Origin: Actinomycetota bacterium
Lineage (GTDB): Bacteria > Actinomycetota > Geothermincolia > Geothermincolales > RBG-13-55-18
Direction: 5' to 3'
Length of the DNA: 51,418 nt
Assembly (NCBI GenBank): GCA_013178005.1
Contig: JABLXL010000033.1
Location: forward strand, 1-51,418
This document shows, in pieces, positions 11,314-24,032 of the stretch. Position 1 is the first letter of the stretch; each line of letters opens with the position of its first letter. The notes under the pieces are model-generated. The model saw only the letters and a list, made by a program, of their open reading frames with translations, had not been told where the DNA came from and did not search any database. Made by a program: the position numbers and the translations under genes.

Positions 11314-11736
11314 TTAATCGCTCTTCGCAACCGGCTTGGTCGGCTTCTCCCCCTGTTTACCCTGCCCGCCGGTGAAGTATGGAAAAATACCCCACAGCGA
11401 CATCCACGCGCGCAGGAGTTCGGCCTGCGCCTCACCCCAGGGAGCGGAAGCCCACGCGAACGGCGGGAGAAGGCCTTTGGTGTTTTCCGCGTTTTCCTCG
11501 AGGATGGTCAGTGCCTTCTCCAGGTCGCGCTGAAACTCTTCTCTCCCGCTCTTCACGTTCGACATCCACGCGGTGAAGAGCGCATCCAACTCGCTGCGCA
11601 TCTTGCCGTTCTGTTCCAGGGCCATCGCCCAGCTTTTCTGCATCTGGTCCAACGCGATATCGACGGACCACAGGGCCGTCTTGAAGTAACTCCTCATCCC
11701 TTCCATAATTGTTTTCTCCCAGGTATCGGCATTCAT
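11314..11736 (-). CDS. Phasin-like helical protein
   Basis: A 140-residue amphipathic helical protein with regularly spaced aromatic residues (SYFKTALWSVDIALDQM, and later TAWMSNVKSGREEF). It ends in a Pro/Gly/Trp-rich and Lys-rich tail (GGQGKQGEKPTKP). The size, helical content and tail resemble phasins, which coat polyhydroxyalkanoate granules. This is a resemblance only, and no PHA synthase is in the window. I start at 11736 because AAGGAGAGG precedes that ATG; an in-frame start 33 bases upstream has no site. Confidence 0.6.
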   Translation of the reverse strand: MNADTWEKTIMEGMRSYFKTALWSVDIALDQMQKSWAMALEQNGKMRSELDALFTAWMSNVKSGREEFQRDLEKALTILEENAENTKGLLPPFAWASAPWGEAQAELLRAWMSLWGIFPYFTGGQGKQGEKPTKPVAKSD

Positions 11737-11850
11737 CTTCCTCTCCTTCCCGTTTCCTGATCCGCTCATCCTTTAACGCGGAACTTGGCGGTTATGGCCT
11801 GCGCGGGAAACGATCCCGTCGTTGTCCCCGCTCGTCCTTTACGCGACACG

Positions 11851-12147
11851 CTAATCAACCTCACTCTGGTAATATGCGTCTTCGTATGAGTAGCCTTCAT
11901 TTTCGTGTGAGTCTTCTTCGTAGTCGCGCACCGGACGCCCGCGGCGCCTCAGTTCGTCGAAGCACGGCTTTTCCAGGAGCTCCTGGCCATCCTGGCCGTA
12001 GGCCTCTTCCGGATCCGCCCATTCCTCCACCCGAACGGCGTTGACATGGGGAGACGTGCCGGCGAACGGCGCGGAGAGGAAATCGTCCATATCCGTCATC
12101 TCGTGATGCCCGCAGAGATTGTCGTCAAGAAAATCGGCCGTTTTCAA
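11851..12147 (-). CDS. Small acidic hypothetical protein, TTG start
   Basis: A 98-residue acidic protein with a Tyr/Glu/Asp-rich C terminus (EGYSYEDAYYQSEVD). The start decision is clear: AAAGGAGGTGAAGGAA, nearly the full anti-Shine-Dalgarno complement, sits immediately before a TTG at 12145-12147, whereas the in-frame ATG at 12198 has none. No domain is recognised; low complexity suggests partial disorder. Pho-box-like repeats lie about 65-90 bases upstream, so it may belong to the phosphate regulon with the divergent phosphatase. Confidence 0.65.
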   Translation of the reverse strand: MKTADFLDDNLCGHHEMTDMDDFLSAPFAGTSPHVNAVRVEEWADPEEAYGQDGQELLEKPCFDELRRRGRPVRDYEEDSHENEGYSYEDAYYQSEVD

Positions 12148-12210
12148 TTCCTTCACCTCCTTTCGGCACGGATTGCCATCCACACTCTCAAGGATCATTA
12201 AGAGGGGCGT

Positions 12211-12239
12211 GGTTTACACCTGGGTTTACGGTTGGTAAA
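12211..12239. promoter_or_regulatory. Possible Pho box between divergent genes
   Basis: Read on the minus strand, TTTACC, TAAACC and TAAACC occur with 11- and 12-base spacing. They resemble the clearer TTTACC/TTTAAC arrays upstream of the kinase-like gene and pstS. The position, between the alkaline phosphatase and the small acidic gene, is right for phosphate control, but the repeats are fewer and less regular. The remaining gap up to 12566 holds no gene. Confidence 0.35.
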
Positions 12240-12566
12240 GGTCTTTAGAAATTCAGGTTGAATTTGTCGTCGGCGGATGCCCAAATCAACGACAGCATTG
12301 TGCTCACCGTGGATGGACCTCCTGCGAAGCAGTGTGGGTGCAATCCTTAATTGATCGGTAAATCAGGCTTCACCTCACCGCAACCCAAGCTTAAACTACG
12401 CGCCCTAAGCTCGGGGCCGTAGGCGGGGAAATTCGAGGTGGTGCGGAAGGAGGTGGTGTGCGCGCAAGCGGAGCGACGAAGAACCCCTTATCCACGACGC
12501 ACACAATGGCAAAGCGCGCAAAAGAGAGAGGAGGAGAGGAACGCTAAGCAGAGAGGAGTAGAAGAA

Positions 12567-13985
12567 ATGCGTTCGCTTCCAAAATATCGCAGAAGAGCAT
12601 GGGCTTACCTGGCCCTGGCGGTCGCCCTGGCCCTTTTTGCCTCGATCACAATGAGGATGTTCGAAATCGACAGCGCACACGCTTTGGGTCTGGGCAGCCG
12701 CAAGGTCAAGAACATTATTTTAATGATCAGCGACGGTTGCGGGTATAACCATATCGAGGCGACTGACTATTACGAAGCGGGAAGGAAGAAGGCCCAGGCC
12801 TATGAGCATTTTCCGGTTAGGCTGGGCATGAGCACCTACGAATACGAACTGGTCGATGGCGCCTACAAGCTCCTGGGCTACGACCCCCGCCGCGCATGGA
12901 GCGAGTTCGAATACGTGAAAGAGAACGCCACTGATTCCGCTTCCGCCGCCACCGCCATGTCCACAAGCTTCAAAACGAAGAACGGTGCCATCGGGGTGGA
13001 CGTCACTGACCGTCCGCTCTCCCATCTCGCACAGCGGGCGGAAGAGCTGGGAATGGCGACCGGCGTCATAACCAGCGTAGAGTGGAGTCACGCCACGCCA
13101 GCCGGGTTCGTCGCCCACAATCCTTCGCGGAACAACTACGAGCAGATTGCCAGTGAAATGATTAACAACAGCGCCACCGACGTGATCATGGGCTGCGGGC
13201 ATCCATGGTTCGACGACAACGGCCGGCCCAAGGCATCCCCCGGCTACAAATACGTCGGCGGCCAGGCGACCTGGGACGCCCTCGTTGCGGGCACCGCGGG
13301 CAAGGCGGTTGACGCCGACCACAACGGCATCATGGACGACGCGTGGAAGCTGATACAAGACCGCGCGGAGTTCCAGGTCCTGGCCAGCGGCCCCACTCCC
13401 AAGAGGGTGTGCGGCACCGCAAAAGCGTACACCACCCTGCAGCAGGGGCGGTCCGGCGACGGCAATGCCGCCCCCTACATCGTCCCGCTCACCCAGAGCG
13501 TGCCCACGCTGGAGGAGATGACCAAGGGCGCCCTGAACGTCCTCGATAACGACCGCGACGGGTTCTTCCTCATGATCGAGGGAGGCGCGGTCGACTGGGC
13601 CAGCCACGCCAACCAGAGCGGCCGCATGATCGAGGAGGAGATGGACTTCAACCACGCCGTTGATGCCGTTATCGACTGGGTGCGCCGCAACAGCAACTGG
13701 GCCGAGACCCTGCTGGTGGTCACGGGCGATCATGAGTGCGGTTATCTCTGCGGCCCCGGATCCGCCGCCGCGGGCAGGATACAGCCCGTGGTCAACAACG
13801 GCCGCGGCGCACTCCCGGGAATGGAATGGAACAGCGACGAGCACACTAACGCCCTGATCCCGCTCTACGTCAAGGGTTGGGCCTCCATCCATTTCTACCG
13901 TTACGCCAACGAGTTCGACCCGGTGCGGGGGCTTTACATCGACAACGCCGAGTTGGGAAAGTTGTTGTTCGGATTGCTGCGTTGA
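12567..13985 (+). CDS. phoA: Exported alkaline phosphatase
   Basis: A 472-residue metal-dependent phosphomonoesterase that releases phosphate from organic esters outside the membrane. The N terminus has basic residues and a hydrophobic segment (AYLALAVALALFASI), i.e. a signal peptide or anchor. The PhoA-type active site is complete: DGCGYNH metal ligand, TDSASAATAMST with nucleophile Ser near residue 124, EGGAVDWASHAN and VTGDHECG metal ligands, and DEHTNALIP near the end. GAGGAG precedes the ATG at 12567. The phosphate sensor and transporter genes follow on the same strand, so phosphate-starvation induction is very likely. Confidence 0.93.
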   Translation: MRSLPKYRRRAWAYLALAVALALFASITMRMFEIDSAHALGLGSRKVKNIILMISDGCGYNHIEATDYYEAGRKKAQAYEHFPVRLGMSTYEYELVDGAYKLLGYDPRRAWSEFEYVKENATDSASAATAMSTSFKTKNGAIGVDVTDRPLSHLAQRAEELGMATGVITSVEWSHATPAGFVAHNPSRNNYEQIASEMINNSATDVIMGCGHPWFDDNGRPKASPGYKYVGGQATWDALVAGTAGKAVDADHNGIMDDAWKLIQDRAEFQVLASGPTPKRVCGTAKAYTTLQQGRSGDGNAAPYIVPLTQSVPTLEEMTKGALNVLDNDRDGFFLMIEGGAVDWASHANQSGRMIEEEMDFNHAVDAVIDWVRRNSNWAETLLVVTGDHECGYLCGPGSAAAGRIQPVVNNGRGALPGMEWNSDEHTNALIPLYVKGWASIHFYRYANEFDPVRGLYIDNAELGKLLFGLLR

Positions 13986-14005
13986 TGCCGTTATCCCCCC
14001 AAAAA

Positions 14006-14033
14006 GAGAAGGGGCCCCCGGGGGCCCCTTCTC
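14006..14033. terminator. 28-base perfect palindrome after phosphatase gene
   Basis: GAGAAGGGGCCCCC is followed directly by its complement GGGGGCCCCTTCTC, about 20 bases beyond the phosphatase stop. On the plus strand it is followed by AAAC. An A-run precedes it, so on the minus strand a T-run follows. It probably ends the phosphatase transcript or works for antisense transcription. Confidence 0.55.
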
Positions 14034-14060
14034 AAACATGGCAGGAAAGGTGGTCGTCCA

Positions 14061-14171
14061 TGGTCTTATATCCCGAGCCGGTGCCGGAAATGCGGAAGAT
14101 ACAAAGAGAGCGAAGCGCGCCGGAAATCGGGCTTCCCTGGTCTTGTGTCCCGAGCCGGCCGGCAATGGCGG
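14061..14171. repeat. Pair of ~34-bp direct repeats before phoP
   Basis: TGGTCTTATATCCCGAGCCG at 14061 recurs as TGGTCTTGTGTCCCGAGCCG at 14138, each followed by a similar CCGG…ATG…CGG stretch. The second copy lies about 40 bases before the phoP promoter, so it could bear on its control, or it may simply be another local duplication. Confidence 0.7.
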
Positions 14172-14177
14172 GACATT

Positions 14178-14207
14178 TTGACGCTGATAAGATAAGAATA
14201 ATATAAA
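14178..14207 (+). promoter_or_regulatory. Promoter of the phoPR operon
   Basis: TTGACG (14178-14183), an 18-base spacer and TATAAA (14202-14207). Transcription would begin near 14214, which coincides with an in-frame ATG and is a reason to prefer the GTG at 14250 as the start codon. Confidence 0.5.
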
Positions 14208-14249
14208 GGCGGTATGATGATGGTCGAAGCGCCGGCGAGAGGACAGGTT

Positions 14250-14954
14250 GTGAAGAGGATCCTTATCATCGAGGACGAGAGGCCCCTGGCCGAGGCGGTG
14301 CAGTACAGCCTGGAAAAAGAAGGCTATGAGGTGGATATCGCCCTCGACGGGGAAAGGGGCTGGGAAAAGTTCACGGGAGGCAGCTACGATCTGATCCTCC
14401 TGGACCTCATGCTGCCCAGTATCGACGGCATGGAGATCTGCCGCCGCGTGAGGAGCTCCGGTTCCACGCCCGTGATCATGCTCACCGCCAAGGACTCCGA
14501 CGTGGACAAGATACTGGGGCTGGAGATGGGGGCGGACGATTACGTCACCAAGCCCTTTAACATGCGCGAACTGGTGGCGCGGGTGCGGGCGGTGCTGAGG
14601 CGCGCGGCCGGCGAGGGCGAGGCGCAGGCGGCCAAAGGCAAGCAGCTGCGGGCGGGGGACATAGTCCTGGACTCCGAGCGGCACGAGGTCAAGGTGGGCG
14701 GCAGGGTGGTGGAGATGCCGCTCATGGAATACCGCCTGCTGGAGCTCTTCATGCGCAACCCGGGCAAGGCCTTGGGGCGCGAATACCTTCTCAATAAGGC
14801 CTGGGAAGGGGACTTTTACGGACAGACCAAGACCCTTGACGTGCATATCAGGCGCCTGCGCGAAAAGATAGAGGAGGACCCGGCCAACCCCAGGCACATC
14901 ATCACCGTGCGCGGGGTGGGCTACCGTTTTGAGGCGGCTGAGGCGGAAACATGA
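14250..14954 (+). CDS. phoP: OmpR/PhoB-family phosphate response regulator
   Basis: A 234-residue transcription factor. The receiver domain (residues 1-120) has the acidic pocket EDE, phospho-acceptor Asp 52 in LLDLMLP, and TKPF with the conserved Lys. A winged-helix DNA-binding domain follows, ending in the typical ITVRGVGYRF. It should bind the TTTACC-type repeats upstream of pstS. I choose the GTG at 14250 (GAGAGG upstream, normal family N terminus) over ATG codons at 14214-14220, which coincide with the predicted transcription start. The gene overlaps the kinase gene by four bases (ATGA). The assignment to phosphate rests on linkage to pst, phoU and phoA. Confidence 0.9.
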   Translation: MKRILIIEDERPLAEAVQYSLEKEGYEVDIALDGERGWEKFTGGSYDLILLDLMLPSIDGMEICRRVRSSGSTPVIMLTAKDSDVDKILGLEMGADDYVTKPFNMRELVARVRAVLRRAAGEGEAQAAKGKQLRAGDIVLDSERHEVKVGGRVVEMPLMEYRLLELFMRNPGKALGREYLLNKAWEGDFYGQTKTLDVHIRRLREKIEEDPANPRHIITVRGVGYRFEAAEAET

Positions 14955-16732
14955 AGAGCCTGAGGCGCGTCCTCATCTTCAGGTACACGCTGGTCGTGGC
15001 CCTGGTGCTGATATCCGTAGCCTTGTCGGTGATTGTGCCCGTTAAATCCTTCACCATCTCCCGCGAGGAGGATGCCCTGGAGGACCAGGCGGAGCTCTTC
15101 GCCCGCATATTCCAACCCTTTTTCACGCCGGAAGGCGAACTGGCGAAGGAAATGGGCGACCTCGACGCTCACCTTGAGGGCCTGGCCTCGGACCTGCCGA
15201 CGCGCCTGACGGTCATCGACGCCTCTGGCCGGGTGCTGGGAGACTCCGATTTTCCCGCCGAGGAGATGGAAAACCACGCCGGAAGGCCGGAAGTGGCCTC
15301 GGCCTTACAGGGACGCACGGCGTCGTCCCGCCGCGAGTCGCGCACCTTGGGAAAGACCTTCATCTACGCCGCGTCGCCGGTGCTTGTCGAGGGGCGAGTG
15401 GTGGGGGTGGCGCGTGTGGCACTGGAGGAGGAAGACGTCAGCCCGGCGATCTTCGGGGTATGGTTGATAATCATCGCCGCCTTCGGGGTCTTGCTCCTGG
15501 TGATCGTGGCCGCAAGCCTGTGGACGGAGAGGTCCCTCACCGGGGAGCTCGCGGCCATGCGGGAGGCGGCGGCGGGACTGGCTTCCGGGGACCTGGAGCG
15601 CCGGGTGGCCGAGCCCGGGGTAGAGGACTTCAACGCCCTGGCGAGGGAGTTCAACGCCATGGCGGACGAGATAAGGCGCAGGATCGAGGAGGCGGGCAGC
15701 GAGAGGGGCAAGCTCGAGGCGGTGATCGAAAACATCTCGGCGGGGATCATGGTGACGGATTCGGAGGGGCGTGTCGCCATGCTCAACCGCGCCGCGGGCA
15801 AGATCCTGGGCTTGGGAGAGAGCGACGCGTTGGGACGTCGCGTGATAGAAATATTTACCAGTAGAGAACTGGACGCCATCGTGTCGCGGGCCACCGGGGG
15901 AGAAAGCGTCGAGGAGGAGATAGAGCTCCTGTACCCATCCCACATGGTGCTCAGGGTAAAGGCCAACCCGGTGCTGGGTTCTGACGGGAAAGTGGTTTCC
16001 GCCGTGAGCGTGATCGAGGACGTCACCGACCTCATGCGGCTCAACCGCATGCGACAGGATTTCGTCGCCAACGTGTCCCACGAGCTGCGCACCCCGGTTG
16101 CCTCCATCAGGGCCCTCGCCGATTCCCTTAGGGACGGGGCGCTGGACGACCGGGAGAGGGCGGGGCGTTTTTTGCATGACCTGGGTCGAGAGGCGAAGAG
16201 GCTTTCGCAGCTCATCGAGGACCTGCTCACCCTGAGCCGGCTCGAGGCCAAGGAGACCTCGCTGCAGCTCGAGGAGTTCTCGCTGCGGGAGCTGGTCAGG
16301 GATTGCCTGGAGGACAAGTCAAAGTTGGCCGAGGGGTTCGGCGTGCGTCTAGAGATGAACGAGCCGCGGGAGGACCTGACCGTGGTGGCGGACCGCGGCC
16401 TGATCAGGACGGCCCTCAACAACCTGGTGGACAACGCCATCAAGTACAACCGGCCGGGCGGCAGGGTGAGCGTGAGCGTCAGGGAGGGAGAAGGCGGGCG
16501 CGCGGTCATTTGCGTGGAGGACACCGGCATCGGGATACCCCGCGAGGAGATGCCACGCGTTTTCGAGCGCTTCTACCGCCTCGACAAGGCGCGCTCGCGC
16601 GAAACGGGGGGCACCGGGTTGGGGCTATCCATCGTGAAGCACATCGCGGACCTCCACGGCGGCGCGGTAGAGGTTCGGAGCGTGGTGGGTGAGGGGTCGA
16701 CCTTCACTATAACCCTGCCGCGTCGCGATTGA
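14951..16732 (+). CDS. phoR: Membrane sensor histidine kinase, PhoR type
   Basis: A 593-residue two-component sensor. Two membrane segments (residues about 10-33 and 158-182) flank an extracytoplasmic domain of about 120 residues. Then come a HAMP linker, a PAS domain, the H-box FVANVSHELRTP with phospho-accepting His near residue 377, and the ATPase domain with N-box NNLVDNAIKYN, G1 EDTGIGIP and G2 GGTGLGLSIV. The architecture matches Gram-positive PhoR. It is translationally coupled to phoP. Its ATPase domain is clearly homologous to the small protein encoded next. Confidence 0.93.
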   Translation: MKSLRRVLIFRYTLVVALVLISVALSVIVPVKSFTISREEDALEDQAELFARIFQPFFTPEGELAKEMGDLDAHLEGLASDLPTRLTVIDASGRVLGDSDFPAEEMENHAGRPEVASALQGRTASSRRESRTLGKTFIYAASPVLVEGRVVGVARVALEEEDVSPAIFGVWLIIIAAFGVLLLVIVAASLWTERSLTGELAAMREAAAGLASGDLERRVAEPGVEDFNALAREFNAMADEIRRRIEEAGSERGKLEAVIENISAGIMVTDSEGRVAMLNRAAGKILGLGESDALGRRVIEIFTSRELDAIVSRATGGESVEEEIELLYPSHMVLRVKANPVLGSDGKVVSAVSVIEDVTDLMRLNRMRQDFVANVSHELRTPVASIRALADSLRDGALDDRERAGRFLHDLGREAKRLSQLIEDLLTLSRLEAKETSLQLEEFSLRELVRDCLEDKSKLAEGFGVRLEMNEPREDLTVVADRGLIRTALNNLVDNAIKYNRPGGRVSVSVREGEGGRAVICVEDTGIGIPREEMPRVFERFYRLDKARSRETGGTGLGLSIVKHIADLHGGAVEVRSVVGEGSTFTITLPRRD

Positions 16733-16845
16733 ACGCGGAAACCCAGCGGGAACCTCCATGCTCCCAAGCCGGCTTCAAGGCTTGGAGCGATAAAGACAAC
16801 GCTCTTGCGAGCATTCGGGCAACCAAGTCGTGTACAGGTAGAGAT

Positions 16846-16893
16846 TTTACCTCGATTTCACCTTCGATTACCTGCTTTTAACCCGTTTTTAAC
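16846..16893 (+). promoter_or_regulatory. Five-site Pho-box array before the kinase-like gene
   Basis: TTTACC (16846), TTCACC (16857), ATTACC (16867), TTTAAC (16877) and TTTAAC (16888) follow one another at 11, 10, 10 and 11 bases, i.e. one face of the helix. This matches the direct-repeat PhoP/PhoB boxes of Gram-positive bacteria. A possible -10, TTGAAT, lies at 16904, about 10 bases beyond the last box, so the boxes would take the place of a -35. The gene starts at 16978. Confidence 0.7.
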
Positions 16894-16977
16894 TTCCGTT
16901 CGTTTGAATTTGGGTTGGTGCCCAGCCGATTCGCGAAGGCGCGGGCACCGAAAACGGAAAGGAAAGGAGGGAAAAAC

Positions 16978-17466
16978 ATGATGGTCGAGGAAATCGTGGT
17001 GAAAGAGCTCATCGAGGAATGTCTCGAGCGTAAGCGTGAAAAGGCCATGGAAAAAGGCGTCCGCCTATGCGCCGCGGAGGAAGACCGCGGTGCGGCCTGC
17101 CGGGCTGACCGCAAGCTGCTTCGCGCCGCTTTGGGAAACATGGTGGAAGCGGCCATCTTCTACAGCCGCTCCGGAAGCGTTATCACGGTCGGATGCCGCA
17201 GCGACGACATGCGCGAGGGCATCTACGTCGCCGGCGACAACGGCTGCATACCCTTCGATGAGCTGCGCACCATGCGCGACCTCTTCTGCCGCCCGACCAT
17301 GCCCGAGACAAGGGACGTAGAGGAGCTTCAAATGCCAATGACCTGCGTTTCCGTGGTCAAAGACATCGCGGACCTGCACGGCGGCATGGTCGGGGTGCGA
17401 AGCATGGAGGGAGATGGATTGACCCTGACCCTCTACCTTCCCCGCGCCCAGCGGGGAGTGGCTTGA
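16978..17466 (+). CDS. Stand-alone degenerate histidine-kinase ATPase domain
   Basis: A 162-residue protein that aligns along its whole length with the C-terminal ATPase domain of the adjacent PhoR. The segment KDIADLHGGMVGVRSMEGDG corresponds to PhoR's KHIADLHGGAVEVRSVVGEG. It has no phospho-accepting His region, no membrane segment and no sensor domain. The nucleotide motifs are altered: the N-box reads GNMVEAAIFYS without the key Asn, G1 reads GDNGCIP, and the G2 glycine loop is replaced by MPMTCVSVV. ATP binding is therefore doubtful. AAAGGAGGG precedes the ATG, and a five-site Pho-box array lies upstream. I infer a phosphate-starvation-induced partner or decoy for PhoR; no described family is recognised. 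Confidence 0.78.
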   Translation: MMVEEIVVKELIEECLERKREKAMEKGVRLCAAEEDRGAACRADRKLLRAALGNMVEAAIFYSRSGSVITVGCRSDDMREGIYVAGDNGCIPFDELRTMRDLFCRPTMPETRDVEELQMPMTCVSVVKDIADLHGGMVGVRSMEGDGLTLTLYLPRAQRGVA

Positions 17467-17825
17467 GGCGGCAGACCGTTGGGGGTGACCTGGTGTCATG
17501 GCGCGATCGGGGAAGCCGGGCTGCGCTCGCGCGATCCCCGTCTATTCGCACCAACGGCCCCCTCAATCCTACCGCTACCCACCAACACGACTCGGCGTGG
17601 CGCGGAATGAAGATCTAATCCAATGGCAATCTACCCTCGGGAGTGCCTTATCCCGCCTTAACGGCGTTGCCCCGGGAACACCCGGTTCCGAGGTCGGGCT
17701 CACTTAAGGTACAGGCTTGTTCCCGGCCCGTACACCCCGCCCATACTCCAGCCGCTTACCCAGCCGTCCTGCCCTATGACCTCGCGGAAGCGTGATGGAG
17801 ATCGTTCCCGGGGAGCCGCTTTCGA
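17467..17825. other. Non-coding gap before the pst operon
   Basis: About 360 bases without a credible gene; open frames here are short and lack ribosome binding sites. The pst Pho boxes begin at 17826. Confidence 0.5.
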
Positions 17826-17901
17826 TTTACCTTCCGTTTACCAAGCGTTTATCGGGTTTTTAACCACGAGACACCCGTTTTTAATCCAAGGCGCCTGTAA
17901 T
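17826..17901 (+). promoter_or_regulatory. Pho-box array and promoter of pstSCAB-phoU
   Basis: TTTACC (17826), TTTACC (17837), TTTATC (17848) and TTTAAC (17859) are spaced exactly 11 bases apart. After one weak position, TTTAAT follows at 17880. A plausible -10, TGTAAT, lies at 17896-17901, 10 bases after the last box, again without a standard -35. This is the layout of an activator-dependent phosphate-starvation promoter. Confidence 0.75.
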
Positions 17902-17975
17902 GGGTTCGACGGACGGAGCATGGACGAAAGCGGAAGAAGCAACGGTTTATGGAGGAAAACAGAAGGAGGAAAAGC

Positions 17976-18842
17976 ATGACGAGAAGGAAGAGCCTGGGTA
18001 TCGCGACGGCGCTTTCGCTGGCTGTTGTCCTCGCCCTGGTCCTCGGAGCTGCCGGATGCGGAGACAAGGGCGGGGAAAGCCCGGCGGAGCCGGAGAAGCC
18101 GAAGCTCTCCGGGACCCTCAACCTCTCCGGCTCCACCACCGTGCTGCCCCTGGCCCAGGAGGCGGCGGACATGTTCATGGACGAGAACCCCGACGTGACC
18201 GTTAACGTGCAGGGCGGCGGTTCCAGCGTGGGAATCTCCAACGTGGCCGAGGGCGTGGTGGACATCGGCAACGCCTCGCGCGGCCTGAAAGATGAGGAGA
18301 AAAGCCTGGGTCTGGTGGACCACGAGATCGCCCTCGACGTCATCGTGGTGATCGCGCACAAGGACGTAGAGGTCGATGACCTCACGGCGGACCAGGTGTT
18401 CGGCATCTTCAGCGGCAAGATCACCAACTGGAAGGAAGTGGGAGGAAAGGACGCGCCCATTACCGTGGTGGTGCGCGACGAGGCCTCCGGAACCCGCGAG
18501 ATGTTCGATGAGAAGGCGCTGAAAAAGGAAAAGCCCAAGGAGGGCGCCATCGAGTGCAACAGCAATGGCGTCATGCGCCAGACCGTATCCAGCACCCCGA
18601 ATTCCATCGGCTATATCTCCCTGGGTTACCTGGACGGTTCCGTGAAAGCCCTTAAATATGGGGGGGTGCAGGGCAGCAAGGAGACGGCGGTCAACAAGAC
18701 CTACCCCCTCTCCCGCTACCTGCACATGTTCACCAAGGGAGAGGCCACGGGGCTCGCCAAGGCCTTCATCGACTTCGTCCTCTCGGACCGGTTCCAGGAC
18801 GAGGTGGTGGCCAAGGAATACATTCCCATGACCGAGATCTAG
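17976..18842 (+). CDS. pstS: Phosphate ABC transporter substrate-binding lipoprotein
   Basis: A 288-residue lipoprotein that captures inorganic phosphate outside the membrane and passes it to PstCA. The signal peptide ends in a lipobox (LGAAGC, Cys about residue 29). The mature part shows the PstS signatures SGSTTVLPLAQ, GGGSSVGI and RDEASGTREMF for phosphate binding. AAGGAGG precedes the ATG at 17976. It opens the pstSCAB-phoU operon and directly follows a Pho-box promoter. Confidence 0.95.
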   Translation: MTRRKSLGIATALSLAVVLALVLGAAGCGDKGGESPAEPEKPKLSGTLNLSGSTTVLPLAQEAADMFMDENPDVTVNVQGGGSSVGISNVAEGVVDIGNASRGLKDEEKSLGLVDHEIALDVIVVIAHKDVEVDDLTADQVFGIFSGKITNWKEVGGKDAPITVVVRDEASGTREMFDEKALKKEKPKEGAIECNSNGVMRQTVSSTPNSIGYISLGYLDGSVKALKYGGVQGSKETAVNKTYPLSRYLHMFTKGEATGLAKAFIDFVLSDRFQDEVVAKEYIPMTEI

Positions 18843-21689: not shown

Positions 21690-22349
21690 ATGGAGCTGAG
21701 AAGGGATTTTCACCAGCGGCTGGACGAGCTATACGCGGAGACCCTGCGCATGGGAGGCGACCTCCTGGAGACCATCGAGAAAACGCGCATCTGTTTCGCT
21801 ACCCTGGATCGTGGCCTGGCGGAGGAGATAATCGCCGGAGACGACCTCTTCGACGCCTACATCGACCGCATCGAGGAGGGAGGGATGGAGCTTATCGCCC
21901 TGCAGGCTCCCGTGGCGGTGGACCTGCGCAGGATAATGGTGATCATGCGCATGGCCCAGCATTTCGAGCGCATGGCCGACCTCTGCGAGGACATCGCCCA
22001 GGCGGTCAGGCACCTTCCCTCGGATTCCGTGAGCTCCTGGATGCGGGAAGCCATCGACGAGATGGCGCGCCGCGCCGTGCGCCTGGTGGAGCGCTCCATC
22101 GAATGCTTCAAGGAGCGCAGCGTGGAGATGGCCATGGAGCTCGACGCCATGGACGACGCCGTGGACAAGCTGCACCGCAAGTTCTTCAAGGAGTTCGACC
22201 GCGGGCGCGAGGAGGACCTGGAGGTGGCGGTGCGCGTGGTCATGGTGGCGAGGTTCTTCGAGCGCATCGCGGACCACGCCGTGGACATCGGGGAGCACGT
22301 ACGTTTCATGGTGGAGGGCACCATAAGCCCGAACCCCCAAAGCCGTTAG
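21690..22349 (+). CDS. phoU: Phosphate signalling protein PhoU
   Basis: A 219-residue cytosolic helical protein that couples PstSCAB activity to PhoR and represses the Pho response when phosphate is plentiful. Both three-helix PhoU repeats are visible: the first contains PVAVDLRRIMVIMRMAQHFERMADL, abridged as PVAVDLRRIMVIMRM…, and the second contains RVVMVARFFERIADHAVDIG. It begins with SD GGGAGAGG and an ATG at 21690. The operon ends with it; a perfect 125-bp tandem repeat begins six bases after the stop. Confidence 0.94.
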   Translation: MELRRDFHQRLDELYAETLRMGGDLLETIEKTRICFATLDRGLAEEIIAGDDLFDAYIDRIEEGGMELIALQAPVAVDLRRIMVIMRMAQHFERMADLCEDIAQAVRHLPSDSVSSWMREAIDEMARRAVRLVERSIECFKERSVEMAMELDAMDDAVDKLHRKFFKEFDRGREEDLEVAVRVVMVARFFERIADHAVDIGEHVRFMVEGTISPNPQSR

Positions 22350-22949: not shown

Positions 22950-24032
22950 ATGGCGAACGTCAACGTATGTCCGCATTGCGGCGTACCGCTATATATCTCC
23001 AGCCAGCACAAATGGCTGGACAACGGGGTTATCCAGCCCGCGCGCGAATCCACCCAACGGCTGGTGTTCTTCGAGTGCGGCAACCTCGATCCTCTCTTCG
23101 AGGGCATAGGGGAGCTTATAGGCGTGCCGGTGGAGCGTATGGTCATAGACGCCTCGCGGAGGTCCACCAAGAAGTACATGGAAAAGGTGGTGCCCGACGA
23201 CGTCAAGGAGATGATACGCTCGGGCGATATGGACCTCAACCTGGTGTTCGACTCCACCTTCATCATCTGGCGGGCCATGGGGTACGGGAAGCTGACCCTG
23301 GAGGACGTGCTCTACCGCCGTGAGAAGGACGACTTCATAAGCGTCCTGGCGGAAAGGCCCTACTCCGTCCCGCTGGCGGTGGGCAATTTCGCCGGCTCCA
23401 TAGAGGCGATAATTGGAAGAGAGCCGGGGATCGAATACGAGGAGACCACGCCGGGAGTCTACCGCATCAAGATATTCGAGGCGGAAAACCCGCCCGAGCT
23501 AAAACAGAGACTGCGCTGGAAGGACTACGAGAAGCCCTTGAAGCCGGGGGACATATCCTTTGATCGCTGCCCCGGCTGCGGGGTGCCCGCCGCGCTTTCC
23601 GCCTATAAGTGGGACCAGGCCAACGGCTCCATTCGGAATTCTCTCACCGGCCGCCGCATGGTCATGACCGGTCCCTCCATGATAGACCCCATATTCGACG
23701 AGCTGGAGGGGGAGCTGGGGGAGAGCGTGCCCCGCGTGGTGGTGGAGGCGCAGAAGAGATTCGTCAAATCGGGTTTCTTCGCCGTGGAGGAGGTCGCCAG
23801 CGAGGAGAACATGCGCGTGCAGCTCGCGCTGCGCGGGCTGGGAAACCTGAGAGAGCTGAAGATGGGGCGGCGAGGGGTGAGCCTATGCCTGGAGAACAGC
23901 ACCCTCCACCTGTTGGGGGTGGGACTGGCCCAGGGTTTGTTCGAAAAGGCCTTCGGGGTGGAGAGCGAGGTGGAATGGGAGCTCCGCGACGACGGCGACC
24001 TCGAGGTGAGCGTTTCCCCCAAGCCGGACTGA
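22950..24032 (+). CDS. Uncharacterised tandem-domain CxxC protein A
   Basis: A 360-residue soluble protein of unrecognised family. It consists of two related halves of about 180 residues. Each half opens with CPxCGVP (CPHCGVP at residue 7, CPGCGVP at about 208), followed by a WxxxxG element, a DP(L/I)F motif, V(E/P)R(M/V)V(I/V)(D/E)A and a C-terminal GxxxGxxExxxG-like stretch. The two CxxC pairs could together bind one zinc or another metal. The C-terminal part of each half loosely resembles V4R-type small-ligand-binding domains; this is unproven. AGGAGG precedes the ATG. A paralog lies 500 bases downstream. Confidence 0.75.
   Translation: MANVNVCPHCGVPLYISSQHKWLDNGVIQPARESTQRLVFFECGNLDPLFEGIGELIGVPVERMVIDASRRSTKKYMEKVVPDDVKEMIRSGDMDLNLVFDSTFIIWRAMGYGKLTLEDVLYRREKDDFISVLAERPYSVPLAVGNFAGSIEAIIGREPGIEYEETTPGVYRIKIFEAENPPELKQRLRWKDYEKPLKPGDISFDRCPGCGVPAALSAYKWDQANGSIRNSLTGRRMVMTGPSMIDPIFDELEGELGESVPRVVVEAQKRFVKSGFFAVEEVASEENMRVQLALRGLGNLRELKMGRRGVSLCLENSTLHLLGVGLAQGLFEKAFGVESEVEWELRDDGDLEVSVSPKPD

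Follow-up and report, generated by a model that had tools for sequence, protein, structure and literature searches.

A putative multi-unit PhoP operator precedes a gene for a stand-alone, apparently inactive PhoR-type ATP-binding domain in an uncultured Actinomycetota class

We analyzed a stretch of 51,418 nucleotides (contig JABLXL010000033.1, assembly GCA_013178005.1), hereafter the window, from an Actinomycetota bacterium. The window carries a phosphate locus in which an array of Pho-type sites lies between the stop codon of phoR and a small gene, termed gene X. The features of the locus are listed below.

11851-12147, minus strand: small acidic ORF of unassigned function
12211-12263, minus strand: third Pho-type array, before the small ORF (matrix, layout)
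12567-13985, plus strand: alkaline phosphatase gene (PF00245, E 2e-51)
14214-14954, plus strand: phoP-type response regulator gene, PhoB/RegX3 class (family matches; nearest solved relative RegX3, 2oqr)
14951-16732, plus strand: phoR-type sensor kinase gene (HAMP-PAS-HisKA-HATPase_c), putative source of X (family matches)
16846-16893, plus strand: array of five direct-repeat Pho-type sites (sequence; matrix rank 1 in the window and the sampled genome)
16904-16909, plus strand: -10-like hexamer TTGAAT, separated from the fifth site by exactly 10 bp (TAA-N14-AAT pattern)
16963-16971, plus strand: ribosome-binding site AAAGGAGGG of gene X (sequence)
16978-17466, plus strand: gene X, for an apparently inactive CA (HATPase_c) domain that stands alone and is paralogous to the PhoR C-terminus (PF02518, identity, tree, model)
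17824-17901, plus strand: pstS Pho-type array with the -10-like hexamer TGTAAT at 17896-17901 (matrix, layout)
17976-18842, plus strand: pstS (TIGR02136 above cut-off)
21690-22349, plus strand: phoU-like gene with which the pst genes end (translation judged by eye)

The names phoP and phoR were given because of matches to PnpS/PhoR and RegX3 together with the pst neighbourhood; the matches of the kinase to the PnpS and PhoR models were below their cut-offs. The permease, ATPase and phoU-like genes after pstS were assigned by eye from their translations. Beyond phoU, relatives more than 60% identical to the window gene at 22950-24032 (read as 360 aa) were found in 8 of 20 loci; the gene is in several pieces in locus L042, and weaker copies occur nearby in some loci. 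The third array, divergent from the alkaline phosphatase gene, has the same layout of a box, 10 bp and a -10 hexamer. In the relative G002 an array in a similar setting (L032:4392-4431, minus strand) precedes another small acidic ORF.

The array at 16846-16893 consists of TTTACC (16846-16851), TTCACC (16857-16862), ATTACC (16867-16872), TTTAAC (16877-16882) and TTTAAC (16888-16893), and the steps between site starts are 11, 10, 10 and 11 bases, exactly as an earlier note on this DNA had described. We scored it with a unit matrix of 8 bases trained on main pstS promoters, taken from 11 other genomes, scanning for chains of five units with steps of 10-12 bases; no window or X promoter entered the training, and the window was used for base composition only. 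The five units form tandem direct repeats of about 11 nt, as in a PHO box, with a chain score of 45.6 bits, and their recognition by the relatives' pstS matrix means that the motif is shared with the pstS promoters of the lineage. The pstS array scored 33.4 bits and the minus-strand array at 12211-12263 scored 31.7 bits, and the best chains in 60 simulated windows (first-order Markov) had a mean of 8.0 (sd 4.3) and a maximum of 22.3. The identification as a Pho-box array was thereby upheld. In 800 kb from 40 further contigs of this genome, the top five-unit score was 28.4. In 80 stretches (1,572,426 bases) plus the window, the array ranked first, the best five-unit score outside the window was 28.2, and 10 five-unit chains outside it scored at least 20, several of them plainly AT-rich. 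Ranks 1 to 3 in this sample, about 45% of the genome, were taken by the three window arrays with both five- and four-unit chains (best four-unit chain outside the window, 24.4). The highest-ranking four- and five-unit chains of this sample thus lie in one locus, and the random scatter of hits that the earlier note had named as fatal to its proposal was not seen there. With three-unit chains (800 kb, 40 contigs) the array was still first, and two sites elsewhere (24.7 and 21.3) scored above the 12211-12263 array (19.3). We also searched the whole genome for three units at exact 11-base steps, a pattern that the 16846-16893 array does not fit because of its 10-base steps. The search gave five matches with at most one mismatch compared with one for a reversed-pattern control; both zero-mismatch matches were overlapping parts of the pstS array. 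The array does not on its own define the consensus of the lineage, as the earlier note had suggested it does, since the consensus also comes from the pstS promoters of relatives. From these sequence comparisons, the array is most likely an activator-type PhoP operator with its promoter, an already known type of element.

The earlier note did not mention the -10-like hexamer downstream of the fifth site. From the TAA of the last box core to the AAT of the hexamer there are exactly 14 bases (TAA-N14-AAT, that is, a box, 10 bp and an NNNAAT hexamer) in all five X promoters and in all 12 main pstS promoters compared; this spacing was spotted by eye in these promoters before counting, and the count is descriptive, not a blind test. 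Any other TAA-AAT spacing from 4 to 26 occurred in at most 2/5 X and 6/12 pstS promoters. The layout fits an activator-dependent Pho promoter in which the last repeat would lie over the -35 region. Between 16700 and 18000 we found no house-keeping promoter with a TTGACA-type -35 element, a search of weak discrimination with only 0.3 expected in shuffles. A search of 11700-18100 for RNA elements before X or pstS gave no Rfam family at threshold, a hairpin after X folded no better than shuffles (z -0.67), and a terminator after X was rejected, the single terminator-like site in 16700-18000 being on the minus strand.

Boxes were present directly upstream of X in all five loci, none of which had been used in matrix training. 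The four-unit scores were 35.7 for the window, 24.3 for G002, 27.8 for G014, 36.9 for G012 and 29.6 for G003. In G002 the array is weak: it has only three boxes, a fourth unit falls on the -10 hexamer, and the score of 24.3 is not above the background best of 24.4. With Pho-type boxes and a common layout at 5/5 orthologues, the link drawn earlier between the array and the regulation of the adjacent gene was supported.

Among ten further arrays, five had the TAA-N14-AAT spacing; those without it in strict form were the array of a second stand-alone gene in G014 (X2, below), the second pst array of G003, two arrays near phoP of G009 and one of G010. Second pst operons are present in G012, G003 and G007 (L034:14372-18323, L035:3020-6930 and L036:2160-6051), with Pho-type arrays ahead of them (L034:14179-14219, L035:7121-7161 and L036:6252-6292). 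Three genomes without X have Pho-type arrays near phoP (L037:13289-13328 and 13461-13500, L039:12855-12894, L040:6467-6508). One of these faces phoP (L037, minus strand) and the rest face away, and autoregulation or control of divergent genes is possible.

The product of gene X is 162 aa long, and its sole Pfam match is HATPase_c (PF02518; 29.1 bits against a cut-off of 26.4, E 1.4e-6) at residues 44-157. A DHp domain with a phospho-accepting His is absent. X shares 39% identity with the CA domain of PhoR, whose gene lies immediately upstream. The predicted model of X had a CA fold (pLDDT 80, pTM 0.78; the lid at 108-116 and the tail were poor), so that X combines a Bergerat-type fold with the family match expected of a CA domain. 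The top solved match of the model was the pseudokinase DivL (Z 20.9, 142 residues, 1.9 Å), tied with the VanS CA domain (Z 20.4); the CA domains of VanS, ThkA and DivL all gave Z of 19-21, and RetS was also among the matches.

Full-length orthologues of X were found in the same family in G002 (54%), G014 (54%), G012 (52%) and G003 (41%), and X lies between phoR and pstS in all five genomes that carry it. We regarded 12 of the 15 family genomes as informative, having phoR and pstS contiguous; G001, a member of the same genus as the window (pstS match starting at contig base 1), G004 (about 8 kb between phoR and pstS) and G008 (a 7,177-base contig with no pst match) were left out. X was present in 5/12 and had no match at the locus in 7/12, and is therefore dispensable. 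A short HATPase frame of 141 aa lies close to the contig end of G001:C116. Among the matches listed for 59 genomes of the phylum, no matching frame below 200 aa was found besides the X orthologues, this frame and X2 of G014. A scan of named genomes placed three X loci in Zod_Metabat.1188, SURF_21 and Ca. Solincola sediminis, the last of which belongs to Ca. Geothermincolaceae. X2 is a strongly diverged stand-alone CA gene after X in G014 (L033:8613-9101); its array (L033:8481-8520) is missing the usual -10 spacing, and in G012, judged by eye, apparently only a short X2 remnant remains before pstS.

In a tree of 31 rows, the six stand-alone copies (five X and X2) fell in one clade (97/99), which adjoins PhoR of the window and of G002 (94/76). 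The copies lie within a larger clade (97/93), together with the PhoR proteins of the family, one PhoR (G015) that belongs to a different family in the order, and three kinases found elsewhere in the phylum. The tree was built without the outgroup kinase L025, which has a stop in its stretch, and without an RsbW row, and in it X was placed with PhoR CA domains; HK_L026 and X2 have very long branches, and the placement of X2 is unsure because of its branch. By this tree the X copies are one clade within Ca. Geothermincolaceae (Actinomycetota), and the simplest reading is a single origin by duplication of the PhoR CA domain followed by later losses, for example in G007. The gene that the earlier note had treated as unknown is thus, by family match, identity and tree, a PhoR-derived ATP-binding domain.

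Residues of the ATP site were compared with those of PhoR, taking the N-, F-, G1- and G2-box residues in X and PhoR to have their usual functions; near the lid, the columns compared are sensitive to how the sequences are aligned. The N-box Asn that coordinates Mg was absent in 6/6 stand-alone copies and present in 8/8 aligned PhoR proteins; it is replaced by A, A, I, M and A in the five X and by D in X2. The G2 box GTGLGL was altered in 6/6 copies. X accordingly departs from the residue pattern of a CA domain at both the Asn and the G2 box. The first Phe of the F box is Arg or Gln in the stand-alone copies, compared with eight PhoR CA domains. Of the six copies, only the X of G014 and G012 keep the Asp of the G1 box (DNGRG); X2 and the X of the window, G002 and G003 have lost it, and the G003 copy retains the G1 glycines. 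Four residues (D101, C104, D129 and G139) were invariant in the five X and never found in the eight PhoR. The reading frame of X is open and full length in 5/5 copies, and pairwise dN/dS (four pairs each; simple counting, with synonymous sites partly saturated) was 0.20-0.29 for X and 0.12-0.28 for the PhoR CA domain. Because these ratios go together with the residue losses, X appears to be under constraint of a different kind from that on an ordinary kinase domain.

Taking together, at the level of sequence, the array and its -10 layout, their conservation, the relation of X to PhoR, the lost ATP-site residues and the constraint on X, we consider it probable that a PhoP operator drives X and that X is a non-catalytic feedback modulator derived from the CA domain of PhoR. 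Under phosphate limitation, phosphorylated PhoP would bind the multi-unit operator (PhoB/RegX3 class) head to tail, its last site taking the place of a -35 element, and would bring RNA polymerase to the -10 hexamer that follows after 10 bp, by which gene X would be switched on. Predicted PhoP binding and phosphate induction, taken jointly, are claims in which we have high confidence. X would have arisen by duplication of the PhoR CA domain and then lost its catalytic residues, becoming a Pho-induced pseudo-CA protein that competes for CA-domain surfaces and modulates its parent system through PhoR or PhoU. By one route, X would occupy the CA-docking face of the PhoR DHp domain as a brake and lower the response. 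By the other, it would titrate PhoU as a decoy, relieving PhoU action and raising the response. In E. coli, docking and coupling analysis led to the proposal, in the part of the report available, that PhoU contacts the PAS and CA domains and may restrain CA (PMC4423584), and for this reason X might titrate PhoU; the contact tested in that work, on which the PhoU route for X rests, is with the PAS domain, a domain missing from X. We hold in even balance the suggestion that X acts on PhoR/PhoU signalling, with an effect of either sign. The sharpest form of the proposal, that the strongest operator of the sampled genome drives a dead stand-alone copy of its own sensor's CA domain as a built-in feedback decoy for the PhoR DHp domain or PhoU, is offered tentatively, as a little short of that.

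The Pho promoter might be correctly read while the CA domain of X is active or binds nucleotide, sensing ATP or phosphorylating a separate partner in trans. X does have the CA fold, the G014 and G012 copies, which may bind nucleotide, have kept the G1 box, and that of G003 has the G1 glycines, so that this reading has some basis; however, the Mg-coordinating Asn is lost and the G2 box changed in every stand-alone copy, the window copy has lost the G1 Asp, and X itself has no DHp domain, and we judge it unlikely. X could also be a decaying fragment of a kinase duplication, its array a leftover or one that serves only neighbouring transcription. Such decay would agree with the seven informative genomes that are missing X, the weak G002 array, the very long branch of X2 and its array without the -10 spacing, and the apparent remnant in G012. 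An open, full-length frame in all five copies, the dN/dS values, a ribosome-binding site of its own and the strongest array in the sampled genome speak against decay, which we consider improbable to a similar degree.

Tandem binding at about 11 bp is common in the OmpR family, and the repeats might therefore bind another regulator of this family with 11-bp direct repeats and not PhoP; the identical layout ahead of pstS in the 12 family genomes compared, and the fact that the top three five-unit arrays in the genome sample all lie within the phoPR-pst locus, make this very unlikely. A chance alignment of T-rich hexamers would have to be considered for an array that was picked by eye, and AT-rich stretches elsewhere reach 20-28 bits with five units, but the simulations, the genome sample, the boxes of the orthologues and the common layout refute it as far as computation allows, and we give it almost no credence.

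The array itself thus fits well into a known kind, the multi-unit PHO box, and the new element is what it controls. The open-access titles and abstract openings that we searched described neither a stand-alone PhoR CA domain nor the Pho regulon in this class of Actinomycetota. With the operator come a tested matrix and a promoter layout by which the Pho regulon of this uncultured class becomes predictable. X, as a natural single-domain protein, allows a direct test of how PhoR-PhoU signalling is tuned and of which CA surfaces matter. The locus points to a phosphate response that may turn a piece of its own sensor into a regulator; if true, this would be a type of two-component regulator derived from a kinase CA domain only.

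The PhoB pho box of E. coli has a 10-bp distance to the -10 element, and its core is CTGTCAT; the operators described here have more units. They share with it the 11-nt direct repeats (PMC4415409) and a predicted position over the -35 region, where the E. coli box has been modelled (PMC3348028), according to the portions of these papers available. The PHO boxes of Streptomyces coelicolor PhoP, described in the accessible text as 11-nt direct repeat units of GTTCACC in simple and complex operators (PMC4415409, PMC7866108), are likewise head to tail, precede pstS, number several per operator and resemble the present ones in their core (here TTTAACC or TTTACC). Unlike those boxes, as far as described there, the present ones have an A/T-richer core, mostly four to six units, two 10-bp steps in the 16846-16893 array and a 10-bp distance to the -10 hexamer that is kept in 17/17 X and main pstS promoters.

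DivL and RetS are pseudokinases derived from histidine kinases that act on signalling and have kept the DHp domain. X resembles them, and ChrS of Corynebacterium glutamicum, as an apparently dead relative of a kinase that could act on signalling, and differs from DivL and RetS in being a CA domain alone, without DHp. ChrS, a pseudokinase with a frameshift in its CA domain according to the text available, is the reverse of X, a kinase whose CA is broken (PMC9491836). Separate modulators of a sensor kinase, as X is proposed to be, are represented by the small DUF1127 proteins that bind and modulate PhoR (PMC12501420) and by CvnF8, an accessory protein with a GAF domain that binds and modulates a sensor kinase (PMC13343842); in the parts of these reports available, unlike X, neither is described as a CA domain or as derived from the kinase that it regulates.
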